This document shows positions 33,531 through 37,206 of a stretch of DNA of 64,000 nucleotides, piece after piece. Every line of letters starts with the position of its first letter. Position 1 is the first letter of the stretch. The notes beneath the pieces were generated by a model. That model was not told the DNA's origin. It saw only the letters and a list, made by a program, of their open reading frames with translations, and searched no databases. The position numbers and the translations under genes were made by a program. The DNA is from Limnohabitans sp. Rim8 (GTDB lineage: Bacteria; Pseudomonadota; Gammaproteobacteria; Burkholderiales; Burkholderiaceae_C). The stretch covers positions 1 through 64,000 of the forward strand of contig CAMDFK010000003.1 of assembly GCA_945897465.1 (NCBI GenBank), in the 5' to 3' direction.

Positions 33531-35534
33531 GTGAGCTCCCAACAAACCCAGGCCCCCGCGCGCCGTCCCATCCGCGAACTTCCCGATGAACTGATCAGCC
33601 AGATCGCCGCAGGCGAGGTGGTCGAGCGGCCAGCATCGGTTGTGCGCGAGCTGGTAGACAACGCCATGGACGCGGGCGCACGCAGCATCACGCTGCGCCT
33701 GATGGGCGGCGGCACGCGGCTGATTTCGGTGGAAGACGACGGCGGGGGCATTGCCCCAGACGAGCTGGCCACGGCCCTCAAGCGCCACGCCACCAGCAAG
33801 ATTGGTAACCTGGACGACCTGGAATCGGTCATGACCATGGGTTTCCGGGGTGAGGCGCTCGCCGCCATCAATTCGGTGTCTGAACTCACCCTGCTCTCGC
33901 GCATGGACAGCCAGCCCACCGCCTTTGCCCTGGACGGCCGCACGGGCGAGATTCGCCCCGCTGCCCGCGCCGTGGGCACCACGGTAGAAGTGAAGGAACT
34001 GTTTTTTTCGACCCCCGCCCGCCGTAAGTTTTTGAAAAGCGACAGCACCGAGCTGGCGCATTGCATCGAAGCTGTGCGCCGCCACGCCCTGGCCCGCCCC
34101 GATGTGGGTTTTGCCATCTGGCACGAAGGCAAGCTGGTCGAGCAGTGGCGTGTGCACCCCGGCGCCGCGGGCCTGGAACAACGCCTGGCCGATGTGCTGG
34201 GCGAAGAGTTTGTGGCGCAATCCATCCCGGTCGAGTACCACGCTGGACCGCTCAAAGTGATGGGCCGTGCCGGTCTGCCCGACGCCGCCCGCTCTCGGCC
34301 CGACCACCAATTTGCTTATGTGAACGGCCGATTTGTGCGCGACAAAGTGGTCATGCACGGCGCCCGCAGCGCTTACGAAGACGTGCTGCACGGCCACAAA
34401 CAACCGGCCTATGCCCTGTTCATGCAGATCGACCCCACGCTGGTCGATGTGAACGTGCACCCCACCAAAATCGAGGTGCGCTTCAGGGACAGCCGCGCGG
34501 TGCACCAAGCGGTGCGGCACGCACTGGAAAACGCCTTGGCCGCGCCCCGTTCGCAAAACATGTCAGATGCGCCCACCGACGCGGCCAACGAATTGACGCT
34601 GAAAAACAGCCCTGCCCCCAAAGCCCTGCCCGAATCGGCCGCATGGACCCAGGGCGGCATGACTTTTGAGCGCACGGGCCCGTCCAGCTTCAGCGCCCCT
34701 GCCTACAAACCCGCCGATTTTGTGCGCCCCCGTGTTGATGGTGACCGCGCCATGGCAGACCTCAAGGCGCTGTGGAACCCACCCGAGCACAACGAAGGCC
34801 TGAGCGCACAAGAGCGCCCTGCACCGGCTTGGCCAAAAGCTGCCCACCAGCCTCCGGCATCCACCGTAGCACCCACCGAAACTAGAGACAGCCCCACCGC
34901 CGCATGGCCTGAGCCCGCCCGTTTGCCCGAAGGCGATTGGCCGCTGGGCCGCGCCATTGCGCAGCTGCATGGCGTCTACATCTTGTCTGAAAACAGACAA
35001 GGCCTGGTGGTGGTGGACATGCACGCTGCGCACGAGCGCATCGTGTACGAGCGCCTGAAAAACCAGCTGAACTCACCCGGCAGCGAAGGCCCCCACATCA
35101 CCAGTCAACCCCTGCTGATCCCCGCCACCTTTGCCGCCACCCCAAGCGAAGTGGCCACCGCAGAGACCTACGCCGAAGCCTTGGAACAGCTGGGCCTGGA
35201 AATCTCGCCCCTGTCGGCCAAGACCTTGGCCGTGCGTGCCGTGCCCACAAGCCTGGCCCAAGGCGATGCGGTGGAGCTGGCCCGCAGCGTCCTGGCCGAG
35301 TTGTCTCAGCACGACGCAAGCACCGTGGTGCAACGCGCCCAAAACGAGATCCTGGCGACCATGGCCTGTCACGGCGCAGTGCGCGCGAACCGCCGCTTGA
35401 CCCTGGACGAGATGAACGGTCTGCTGCGTCAAATGGAAGAGACCGAGCGCTCCGACCAGTGCAACCACGGTCGCCCCACTTGGCGTCAGATGTCCATGCG
35501 GGATCTGGATGCGCTGTTTTTGCGGGGTCGGTGA
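33531..35534 (+). CDS. mutL: DNA mismatch repair protein MutL with endonuclease motif
   Basis: The matchmaker of mismatch repair, 667 residues. The N-terminal GHL ATPase is complete: ISQIAAGEVVERPASVVREL, LVDNAMDAGA, EDDGGGI and MGFRGEALAAI. A low-complexity linker (about 340-470) leads to the C-terminal dimer domain. That domain contains DMHAAHERIVYE (from D496), which fits the nuclease motif DQHA(X)2E(X)4E apart from Met for Gln, and CNHGRPT at C644, so it is probably the nicking form used by species without MutH. The start is GTG 33531, close to an AGGAA, with no good downstream alternative. It is divergent from the DedA gene. Confidence 0.95.
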   Translation: MSSQQTQAPARRPIRELPDELISQIAAGEVVERPASVVRELVDNAMDAGARSITLRLMGGGTRLISVEDDGGGIAPDELATALKRHATSKIGNLDDLESVMTMGFRGEALAAINSVSELTLLSRMDSQPTAFALDGRTGEIRPAARAVGTTVEVKELFFSTPARRKFLKSDSTELAHCIEAVRRHALARPDVGFAIWHEGKLVEQWRVHPGAAGLEQRLADVLGEEFVAQSIPVEYHAGPLKVMGRAGLPDAARSRPDHQFAYVNGRFVRDKVVMHGARSAYEDVLHGHKQPAYALFMQIDPTLVDVNVHPTKIEVRFRDSRAVHQAVRHALENALAAPRSQNMSDAPTDAANELTLKNSPAPKALPESAAWTQGGMTFERTGPSSFSAPAYKPADFVRPRVDGDRAMADLKALWNPPEHNEGLSAQERPAPAWPKAAHQPPASTVAPTETRDSPTAAWPEPARLPEGDWPLGRAIAQLHGVYILSENRQGLVVVDMHAAHERIVYERLKNQLNSPGSEGPHITSQPLLIPATFAATPSEVATAETYAEALEQLGLEISPLSAKTLAVRAVPTSLAQGDAVELARSVLAELSQHDASTVVQRAQNEILATMACHGAVRANRRLTLDEMNGLLRQMEETERSDQCNHGRPTWRQMSMRDLDALFLRGR

Positions 35535-35977
35535 TGTCAGAGCAAACTGTCGCTCGAACTCTTTGGTGCCTTGAATCCGAGTCAGAGGAGCCCGCCGCGC
35601 GGACTCGCTCATACTCGCTTCGCTCGCCAAATCGCGATCTCCGCGCGGCGGGCTCCCCTGGCTCTGCGGCAGTGGTGTGGTGCTCAAAAACCCTCTCGGC
35701 TTTGATGGACCACCCAGCGCTGGGCGAGGCTGGTGTGCGGACTGCCCGATTTGGCGAGCGAAGCGAGTATGAGGGCAACCGTACTGCGGCAGTGGCATGG
35801 CGCTCAAAAACACTGACGGCTTTGAATAACCACTCAGCGCTGAGCGGGGCCGGAGTGCGGACTGCCCGATTTGGCGAGCGAAGCGAGTATGAGGGCAGCC
35901 GCACACCGGCCTCGCCCAGCGCGTTCCGCGAAGAACCCTGCATCCACGCAGGGCAAATCGGCGCATGCTCGGATTAA
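35534..35977 (+). CDS. Doubtful repeat-encoded ORF directly after mutL
   Basis: A 147-codon frame whose ATG overlaps the mutL stop (TGATG). It reads MSEQTVARTLWCLESESEEP and then consists mostly of translated DNA repeats, with RTARFGERSEYEG occurring twice. The same DNA is also open on the opposite strand. Because the conserved signal in this region is structural at the DNA level (see the repeats), I regard a functional protein as unlikely, although coupling to mutL makes translation of its start possible. Confidence 0.25.
   Translation: MSEQTVARTLWCLESESEEPAARTRSYSLRSPNRDLRAAGSPGSAAVVWCSKTLSALMDHPALGEAGVRTARFGERSEYEGNRTAAVAWRSKTLTALNNHSALSGAGVRTARFGERSEYEGSRTPASPSAFREEPCIHAGQIGACSD
35587..35656. 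repeat. Large perfect hairpin carrying the inverted core repeat
   Basis: A perfect 17-bp inverted repeat, GGAGCCCGCCGCGCGGA (35587-35603) and TCCGCGCGGCGGGCTCC (35640-35656), about 50 bases after the mutL stop. Its 36-base loop contains, in reverse orientation (35608-35634), the same core CGATTTGGCGAGCGAAGC.. that occurs twice downstream. It lacks a T tract, so it is not a simple terminator, though it could stop or protect the mutL transcript. Confidence 0.85.
35664..35903. repeat. Two tandem 120-bp structured repeats
   Basis: Unit 1 is 35664-35783 and unit 2 is 35784-35903; by eye they are about 85-90% identical. Each contains a 12-bp palindrome: CCCAGCGCTGGG at 35713-35724 and CTCAGCGCTGAG at 35833-35844, the latter with a compensatory pair of changes. 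Each also has a core of about 27 bases that is identical in both units (35747-35773 and 35867-35893). In unit 2 the core is flanked by GTGCGGACTGCCC and GGGCAGCCGCAC, which pair apart from one bulged A. The pattern points to a mobile or regulatory structured repeat (REP/BIME-like). Confidence 0.85.
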
Positions 35978-37206
35978 AGCGAAACAACAGCATGTCGCCC
36001 AAACTCATCGTCCTGCTCCTGGCCCTGCTGCTCGGACTGCAACCCGTCACCACCGACCTGTACCTGCCCGCCCTGCCCGCCATCACCGAAGGCTTCGGGG
36101 CGGGGATGGGCCAGGCCCAACTCACCCTCACGGGCCTGCTGCTCGCCTTTGGCCTGTCGCAGCTGGTTTGGGGCCCGCTGTCGGACCGCTTTGGCCGCAA
36201 AACTATCCTGCTTTGGGGCATGGCCGCTTACGTGATCGCCTCGGTGACCTGCGCCTTCGCGCCCAACATGGCCTGGCTGGTGGCGGGTCGCGCCCTGCAA
36301 GGCGTGGCCATGGGCGCTGGTGTCATGGCCGCACGCGCCGTGGTGCGCGACCTGTATGCCCCAGCCCAAGGGGCCACCGTCATGTCGCAAGCGCTCACGG
36401 GTCTCGGCATCATCGCCTGCGCCTGTGCACCCATTGGGGGCATCTTGACCGACGCTTTGGGCTGGCGGGTGGCCTTGTTGGTGCTGGCCCTATTTGGGGC
36501 CGTCACCTTCGGACTGCTGCTGTGGCGCTTTGAGGAAACCCTGGCTCGCCCCAACCCGCACGCCCTGCACATGCCCAGCCTGTTGCGGGCCAACTGGACC
36601 ATCTTGCGCCATCCCACCTTCCGCGCCTGGAGCGCCTTGTCCACAGGGTCCTATATGGGACTGTTCACCTTCTTGGCCTGTTCGGCCTTTGTTTTTACCC
36701 GCAGCATGGGGTACAGCAAAACCGCCTACGGGTTTTTCATGCTCAGCATGTCGCTGTCCTACATCGTGGGCACCTTCTGGTGCCGCTGGATGCTGCGCCG
36801 CACCAGCGTGCACCGGTCAGTCGCTGTGGCGGCTGTCCTCACCCTCACGGGTGGCATCAGCATGGCCGCGCTGGCCTATGCGGGCCAAGGCCAGGACTGG
36901 TACGGCGCGGCCTGCGTCATGGGGCCGATTTACCTCTTCATGTTGGGCCACGGCGTGCACCAGTCCTGCGGCCAAAGTGGTGCCGTCGCGCCCTTCCCCG
37001 AGAAAGCAGGCACCGCCTCGGCACTCAACGGCTTTTTGATGATGCTGGGGGCCTTTTTCATGGGCAGCTGGCTGGGCACACAAATGCACGAGCCCGTCTT
37101 TGCCTTGGCCCACGGCCTGCTGCTGTGGAGTGTTGTCATTGCCCTGGTGGCCTGGACCCTGGTGCAGCGCCACGGCCGCTCAGCCACGCTGCCCGCCCGC
37201 GCCTGA
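35965..37206 (+). CDS. Bcr/CflA-type multidrug efflux transporter (MFS)
   Basis: A major facilitator superfamily exporter of 413 residues with about twelve membrane helices. The N-terminal half has the drug/proton antiporter motifs [15 protein letters not shown] and [16 protein letters not shown], followed by [11 protein letters not shown], typical of the Bcr/CflA group. ATG 35965 is listed; ATG 35992 ([10 protein letters not shown]) is equally possible and gives a more usual N-terminus. It follows the repeat region behind mutL and precedes miaA by ten bases. Substrates are unknown. Confidence 0.92.

Follow-up and report, generated by a model that had tools for sequence, protein, structure and literature searches.

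The window, that is, the whole 64,000-nt stretch of Limnohabitans sp. Rim8 DNA analyzed here, carries mutL and, downstream on the same strand, a gene for a Bcr/CflA-like MFS transporter (Table 1). Between them lie three exact copies of a 26-nt core, GATTTGGCGAGCGAAGCGAGTATGAG, one inverted and two direct, as had been claimed in the initial annotation of this DNA. The whole genome (3.0 Mb) has four exact cores and no match to the reversed control pattern, so the number is above chance. The insertion stands directly 3' of the mutL stop codon, which in empty relatives overlaps the ATG of the transporter gene (..TGATG..).

Table 1. Genes, hairpin elements and tandem units behind mutL, in window coordinates.
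Feature	Position	Strand	Evidence
mutL	33531..35534	+	NCBIfam NF000949, 842 bits
Element 1 (inverted), complete hairpin	35575..35668	-	structure model 84.1 bits, E 1.1e-15
Element 1 arms	35579..35603/35640..35664		25 nt, 92%
Element 1 perfect 17-bp stretch	35587..35603/35640..35656		read from sequence
Element 1 core	35608..35633	-	exact match
Direct-repeat unit 1, 120 bp	35664..35783	+	repeat search
Element 2, broken	35713..35806	+	structure model 60.1 bits
Element 2 core	35748..35773	+	exact match
Direct-repeat unit 2, 120 bp	35784..35903	+	repeat search; 87% identical to unit 1
Element 3, complete hairpin with bulges	35833..35926	+	structure model 88.7 bits, E 9.7e-17
Element 3 core	35868..35893	+	exact match
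Bcr/CflA-like MFS transporter gene	35965..37206	+	TIGR00710, 196.8 bits, slightly below the cut-off of 200.9

The perfect 17-bp hairpin reported around the inverted core is present as part of a 25-nt stem, and the two direct cores do fall in 120-bp tandem units. Unit 1 had been described as only weakly paired, and indeed element 2 keeps its left arm while the place of its right arm is taken by the beginning of the following unit, which is reflected in its low model score; the right arm was lost to the tandem duplication. Unit 2 was said to be paired apart from one bulge. The pairing is there, and the full hairpin pairs through bulges. The letters of the change from CCCAGCGCTGGG in unit 1 to CTCAGCGCTGAG in unit 2, which was taken for a compensatory change, are also correct, but they are weak evidence of selection because in the full hairpin this short palindrome makes up the base of the left arm and pairs with the right arm. 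The compensatory evidence proper comes from other copies. In a folding test against dinucleotide shuffles, applied within the window to elements 1 and 3, both did far better than the shuffles, with z of −5.6 to −8.4 (both strands as DNA, the core strand as RNA).

The three repeats are members of a family of ~92-nt hairpins scattered in freshwater Limnohabitans and relatives, and the core is widespread, hence not unique to the mutL site. With up to three mismatches allowed, 52 of the 90 genus genomes have the 26-mer core and none of the 59 genomes from other families does (reversed pattern, 0). A 21-mer pattern, which excludes the −1 C, the ATGA and the +1 G (the 26-mer includes ATGAG), was found at ≤3 mismatches in 65 of the 90 genus genomes and at ≤2 mismatches in 24 of 399 family genomes, with the reversed control in two genomes each time; at least two of these genus genomes and at least four of the family genomes look like chance matches because no hairpin accompanies them. 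The weak-stem copies L220, L226, L230 and L232 are the sole copies collected from four of the 24 family genomes, and L200 and L203, likewise chance-like, are those from G006 and G025. Core-pattern searches partly fix the tip by construction, the 21-mer accepting either A or C as the loop base N. A covariance model lessens this bias, yet was itself built from core copies. It matched 64 of 90 genus genomes and, within the family, 65 of 399 genomes and (with the own genus counted) 37 of the 141 genera sampled. A sample of 399 genomes from the order added just two weak matches beyond the family (E 0.003 and 0.007); the family and order counts are lower bounds since 10 candidates were scored per genome. 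This genome alone has 23 structure-model matches, 21 of them with E < 1e-4. No model match at E 0.01 was found in 26 of the 90 genus genomes, 13 of which are among the 56 near-complete ones. Among the 21-mer matches listed (80 of at least 117), the named records are from Limnohabitans, Rhodoferax, Hydrogenophaga and Comamonadaceae or Burkholderiales MAGs without closer placement, and one has a Verrucomicrobia title. Carriage by viruses was rejected, as viral contigs gave no exact match.

Each copy is a ~92-nt hairpin with a CAGC base, a stem of ~29 bp, an internal loop CGATTT...ATGAG and a mini-hairpin tip GC-GNA-GC. Mean GC content is 68.7% (183 copies). The pair tallies cover the 183 copies with at least 18 of 29 pairs, a selection that favors paired copies. 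The geometry is nearly constant: pairing ends 29–32 nt past the tip in 134 of them, earlier in 12 and later in 37, and a one-base bulge stands seven bases before the tip in 159, being A in 44% by cluster weight. The base, CAGC/GCGG, is moderately conserved in a consensus weighted over 19 clusters, and arm identity between sites averages 43%. An intrinsic terminator was considered and rejected, as the cluster-weighted consensus of the core strand has no T-run behind the hairpin and is rich in A and C from +32 to +45.

The letters inside the conserved tip, C-GATTT-...-(N)ATGA-G, can form GGCGA-GC-GNA-GC-GAGT; when every position of the 26-mer was left free, 15 of 24 one-mismatch rows differed at N (C in 13, T in two). 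The oligonucleotide d(GCGNAGC) is an exceptionally stable DNA mini-hairpin, and CGAG/CGAG is a tandem sheared G.A motif. Folding of the tip as a mini-hairpin is supported by variants: in L225 and L025 both G.A pairs are replaced by Watson-Crick pairs (GGCGCGCGCAGCGCGT), and relatives found by the model have the tips GGCCCGC-GAG-GCGGGT (L422) and GAGCGC-GCA-GCGCTC (L425). Exceptions are L421 and L426, with A.C opposite, L432, which keeps the inner pairs only, and L433, which has no such hairpin; tips of structure-model matches were taken from the sequence letters.

In all, 200 distinct copies were collected, and removal of nine with fewer than 13 of 29 pairs left 191, which fall into 20 flank clusters. 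The copies are thus dispersed, and most clusters are intergenic. One cluster of 41 copies lies in valS, two (30 and 29 copies) lie in the murB-argG gap in opposite orientations, and two (18 and 8) lie behind mutL. Others are found after an Orn/Lys/Arg decarboxylase gene (18 copies), between coaBC and pyrG (15) and near pyrC (11), and 12 clusters are small (for example, argC-recX, MFS-ruvC and one beside rsmG). For each cluster the neighboring genes were read in one or two representatives; the decarboxylase, coaBC, recX, argC-type, rsmG and ruvC proteins at cluster sites are confirmed by Pfam, and murB, argG, pyrG, pyrC and the MFS gene next to ruvC were named by reading, without Pfam confirmation. 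Regulation specific to pyrG and pyrC was rejected because the copies sit at too diverse a set of sites. As the large clusters represent orthologous sites, most copies are old, and the retention of paired arms at old sites suggests either a local function or re-mobilization. In one copy (L138 6411) each arm resembles a different allele of the murB-argG element, and recombination within the core may have produced such a chimera.

In orthologous copies, changes in one arm are matched by changes in the other, the covariation that the initial annotation had put forward as a check. The valS alignment is gapless and has 41 copies in 40 distinct rows. In it 83.8% of cells are paired (65.7% when shuffled), double-sided changes occur in 23 of the 29 outer pairs, double-change cells number 224 against 63.6 shuffled, and the covariation score is 0.453 against 0.143; none of 500 shuffles reached the observed value on any measure. 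These shuffle tests are inflated by relatedness, and the structure was read from the same sequences; controls with slid partners, which keep relatedness, gave 28–36% paired cells and covariation of 0.036–0.083. Two or more Watson-Crick types were seen at 21 of 26 positions. The inner stem is not uniform, the four pairs by the tip (columns 29–32) being unpaired in 10 to 31 of 40 rows. Of all 200 copies, 171 form 22 or more of the 29 pairs, as compared with 105 of 2000 random left-right mixtures, some of which combine orthologues. Tip and stem length are near-fixed and the letters of the stem vary pair by pair, also inside protein genes.

The initial annotation had argued against a protein, which holds at mutL and fails elsewhere, as open-frame copies lie in valS, in a ygiQ-family gene and in others. 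All 41 copies of the flank-defined valS cluster are in frame without a stop, and from these reading frames we infer that they are translated. The insert lies in a linker preceding DYDLYLPSSVLVTG. Linkers with an element have 39–96 residues; of those without a core, 20 have 10–27 residues and one (L253) has 40. Three further copies (L095, L112 and L240) are antisense in valS and are partners of inverted pairs. Outside valS, an open-frame copy with a weak stem (13 of 29 ungapped pairs) was found in a YgiQ-family radical SAM protein (L085), and another in a DUF3025 gene, ahead of the domain and with a putative start codon (L172). A protein without a family match (L147) carries two elements in tandem, both in frame, that share their arms and differ in their tips, both tips keeping GATTT...ATGA. 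We dropped the idea that arms arise de novo from target DNA because the short element-free valS linkers have no recognizable native arm, and base motif and length are common across sites. One core-free valS gene (L255) retains a piece resembling the left arm, probably a relic. Our literature search returned nothing on palindromic valS insertions in betaproteobacteria, and the core letters led to unrelated subjects only.

Which strand folds can be read from the pairs that are not Watson-Crick. On the core strand, G.T/G.U pairs exceed A.C by 133 to 55 distinct events (p 1.2e-8), an excess whose sign a C-to-T bias on that strand would also yield; a further 152 distinct mismatch events of other types outnumber G.U. 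By cluster, G.U to A.C is 18:14 in valS, 14:8 and 16:7 in the two oppositely oriented murB-argG sets, 7:0 at pyrC, 8:0 (p 0.008) in the mutL-site set that is antisense to both neighbors, and 11:5 (p 0.21) in the copies antisense in valS. Because the bias holds in antisense and opposite-orientation copies, the folded strand follows the core rather than transcription: the core-bearing single strand is what folds.

This preference bears on the strongest alternative, namely, that the hairpin acts in transcripts as an mRNA stabilizer, a processing site or a small RNA, with a protein bound at its tip. RNA helices typically show compensatory changes and, as seen here on the core strand, tolerance of G.U; in valS all 41 copies have the core strand as sense, as do the representatives read upstream of pyrG and pyrC. 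In addition, the Beta-proteobacterial repeat element (BRE) is described, in the part of its report available to us, as overlapping the region of the Bordetella small RNA bprJ, with an observed length of ~70 nt (PMC3110155). However, copies occur in both orientations, the antisense mutL cluster keeps its G.U bias, inverted doublets place one core on each strand, and the genes hit (valS, the ygiQ family, DUF3025 and others) have no visible common regulatory logic. An Rfam search gave no match at gathering score in the window, and among the element loci it gave sub-threshold hairpin hits for six and none at gathering score. We regard an RNA element as possible, although rather unlikely.

At the mutL site the element has been gained or lost. 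The site was examined in 86 of the 90 genus genomes; 50 are in a tree made from a 450-nt mutL fragment, and 36 in which the mutL-end motif failed were excluded, at least one of them (G018) being filled. The site is filled in 17 of the 50 genomes, which requires 11 state changes on the tree, at least five of them forced by supported branches, and two supported sister pairs (G014/G054 and G033/G053) have opposite states. The filled state is clustered on the tree (14 of 500 shuffles were as low). Of 47 inner branches, 23 are weakly supported, and bootstrap values had yet to stabilize, which leaves the number of gains uncertain; transfer of mutL DNA from one species to another could also look like gains. 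A site was called empty when it had no core, and the longer spacers of G026, G030, G041, G055, G057, G060 and G078 may hold relics. In the mutL-MFS gap of G041 (L324), a base motif, CAACGCAGC, stands right before the ATG without an element, a possible excision footprint.

Other events are also seen at the DNA level. L306 (G084) has the same flanks as L313 (G018) and L089, with the tip and inner stem inverted in situ. Of 40 close pairs, a tally in which orthologous pairs are counted repeatedly, 32 are head-to-head (30 of them at 120–137 bp), seven same-way and one tail-to-tail; the 26-mer search found an additional tail-to-tail pair in G082. No recent jump was seen among clusters, the best between-cluster arm identity being 0.80–0.85, and the two copies at 0.85 (L114/L172) may be one site. 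No transposase was linked to the elements, and a target duplication was not defined; a gene lying between distant paired copies was rejected as the transposase, since the ORFs there differ among the three loci viewed and none is transposase-like by eye.

Alternatively, the copies could be resident DNA sites, extruded as a hairpin or cruciform for chromosome biology (a nucleoid protein, replication or recombination) without mobility. The in situ inversion implies extrusion or recombination at the DNA level, and the same sites were conserved for long (clusters of 41, 30, 29, 18, 18, 15, 11 and 8 copies), but the patchy distribution, with 26 of 90 genus genomes lacking a model match, and the repeated flips of presence at mutL make this improbable. 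That old palindromes are kept perfect without selection, by mutation alone through template switching between arms, a known mutational process, is highly improbable: the in situ inversion does show that arms interact, and there is a tandem duplication at mutL, but the near-constant stem length across sites and the conserved tip and base are left unexplained, as is the 133:55 excess of G.U over A.C unless the core strand has a C-to-T bias.

The family is real, structured and dispersed, and in all likelihood it moves or once moved; how it does so we infer as follows. The reading that we prefer, and towards which we lean slightly, is that of a Comamonadaceae family of non-autonomous, mobile or once-mobile palindromic elements whose tip and base are read in trans and whose arms serve as a ruler. 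The core-bearing single strand would fold into a hairpin of near-fixed length, and a trans-acting factor would read its tip (CGATTT, the mini-hairpin GC-GNA-GC and (N)ATGAG) together with the base (CAGC/GCGG); any arm sequence would be permitted if paired. Recognition of the folded strand, probably as ssDNA, would serve mobility, with the head-to-head doublet as the moving unit and the mobilizing enzyme encoded elsewhere. A narrower proposal, which we offer tentatively, is a "tip and ruler" single-strand transposon, whose enzyme would recognize the tandem G.A pairs and the GNA mini-hairpin of the tip and cut the base at a fixed helical distance, leaving the arms free in sequence provided that they pair. 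If this is true, such an element can insert into an essential gene and end up as a flexible linker in frame, as in valyl-tRNA synthetase. The initial annotation had suggested a REP/MITE-like mobile element or an RNA structure, which is the right class, whichever of the two it proves to be.

Among known repeats, the best reading is that the element works like REPIN and the Rickettsia palindromic elements (RPE) and that its closest published relative is BRE (Hot et al. 2011, PMC3110155). The available part of that text describes BRE as ~90 bp long (75–91), with a GC content of 69.0%, usually intergenic with some copies wholly inside coding sequences, tandem at some loci with varying copy number, and present in the Comamonadaceae Polaromonas, Delftia, Rhodoferax, Acidovorax and Verminephrobacter. 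Our element, compared by description only, agrees in being ~90 bp, GC-rich (68.7%) and both intergenic and within coding sequences, in its tandems and in its betaproteobacterial host family; hairpin architecture, covariation, tip and in-frame reading do not appear in that part of the BRE text. Bordetella, the type host of BRE, is outside Comamonadaceae, and our order sample, with its two weak outside matches, may lack Bordetella.

REP sequences, in the portion of the source at hand, are palindromes of 20–40 bp with a GTAG or CGTC tag, and untagged REP-like sequences in Bordetellae are mentioned (PMC3733652). With REP and REPIN our element shares the palindrome, the bulged stem, the frequent position between gene ends, the lack of an own gene and the inverted doublets, these last being the arrangement of 32 of the 40 close pairs. 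It differs in its length (~92 nt, with a ~29-bp stem and a 25–26-nt tip), its conserved tip and free arms and, in the consensus over 19 clusters, the lack of an invariant GTAG/CGTC tag at the base. A REP-associated transposase (RAYT), which the initial annotation named as a candidate mobilizer, is unlikely to be one. This genome has a RAYT match (NF047646, 79.6 bits, cut-off 80), but at the four of seven RAYT loci that were examined (L371–L374) the ~231-aa RAYT lies beside a different, AT-rich palindrome (TTTAATTGGGGTC/GATCCCAATTAAA), on both sides in L371 (G000:C17:73500-76200) and L372 of this genome and on one side in L373 and L374. Moreover, 85 of the 90 genus genomes have Y1_Tnp matches, element-free ones (e.g., G001 and G031) among them.

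The RPE are ~150 bp long, and many stand in frame in unrelated protein genes, according to the part of the source available (PMC10969869). Our in-frame copies in unrelated genes (valS, L085, L147 and L172) resemble them by description, with translation presumed on our side. The family as a whole differs from RPE in belonging to another bacterial class, in having free arms with only tip, base and length kept, and in forming mostly intergenic clusters. We also compared the element with the attC sites of integrons, which are recognized by structure as a folded single strand with an extrahelical base and a free stem sequence, and whose base is conserved whereas the tip varies. Folded strand, extrahelical base and free stem are alike, but in our element the tip is the most conserved part; no integron cassette array was seen.

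The family offers an unusually clean natural case in which hairpin geometry and tip are kept and the stem is rewritten by paired changes, and dozens of orthologous copies, some within open reading frames, show this rewriting. It makes testable how short palindromic repeats without genes move, perhaps by a RAYT-independent route, and how new protein segments outside Rickettsia are seeded by palindromes.

Hairpins with other tips were observed as well. Beyond the window, this genome has a second subfamily, with the tip CGATGTGGCAAAGCGAAGCGCCTCTGAG in eight rows (L455, L456, L459 and L461–L465), in one of which A replaces the first G after GAT; its rows include the head-to-head pairs C9:40649/40837 and C2:82516/82713. 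In a record titled Verrucomicrobia UBA6015 (L131), two inverted cores seem themselves to be the arms, and this is either misbinned DNA or an unrelated palindrome. Finally, a long hairpin from another family of the order (L435) has the tip GTCCGAGCGAAGCGAGTTTAG, with the same GCGAAGC mini-hairpin and a different internal loop, and may represent a sister repeat family.
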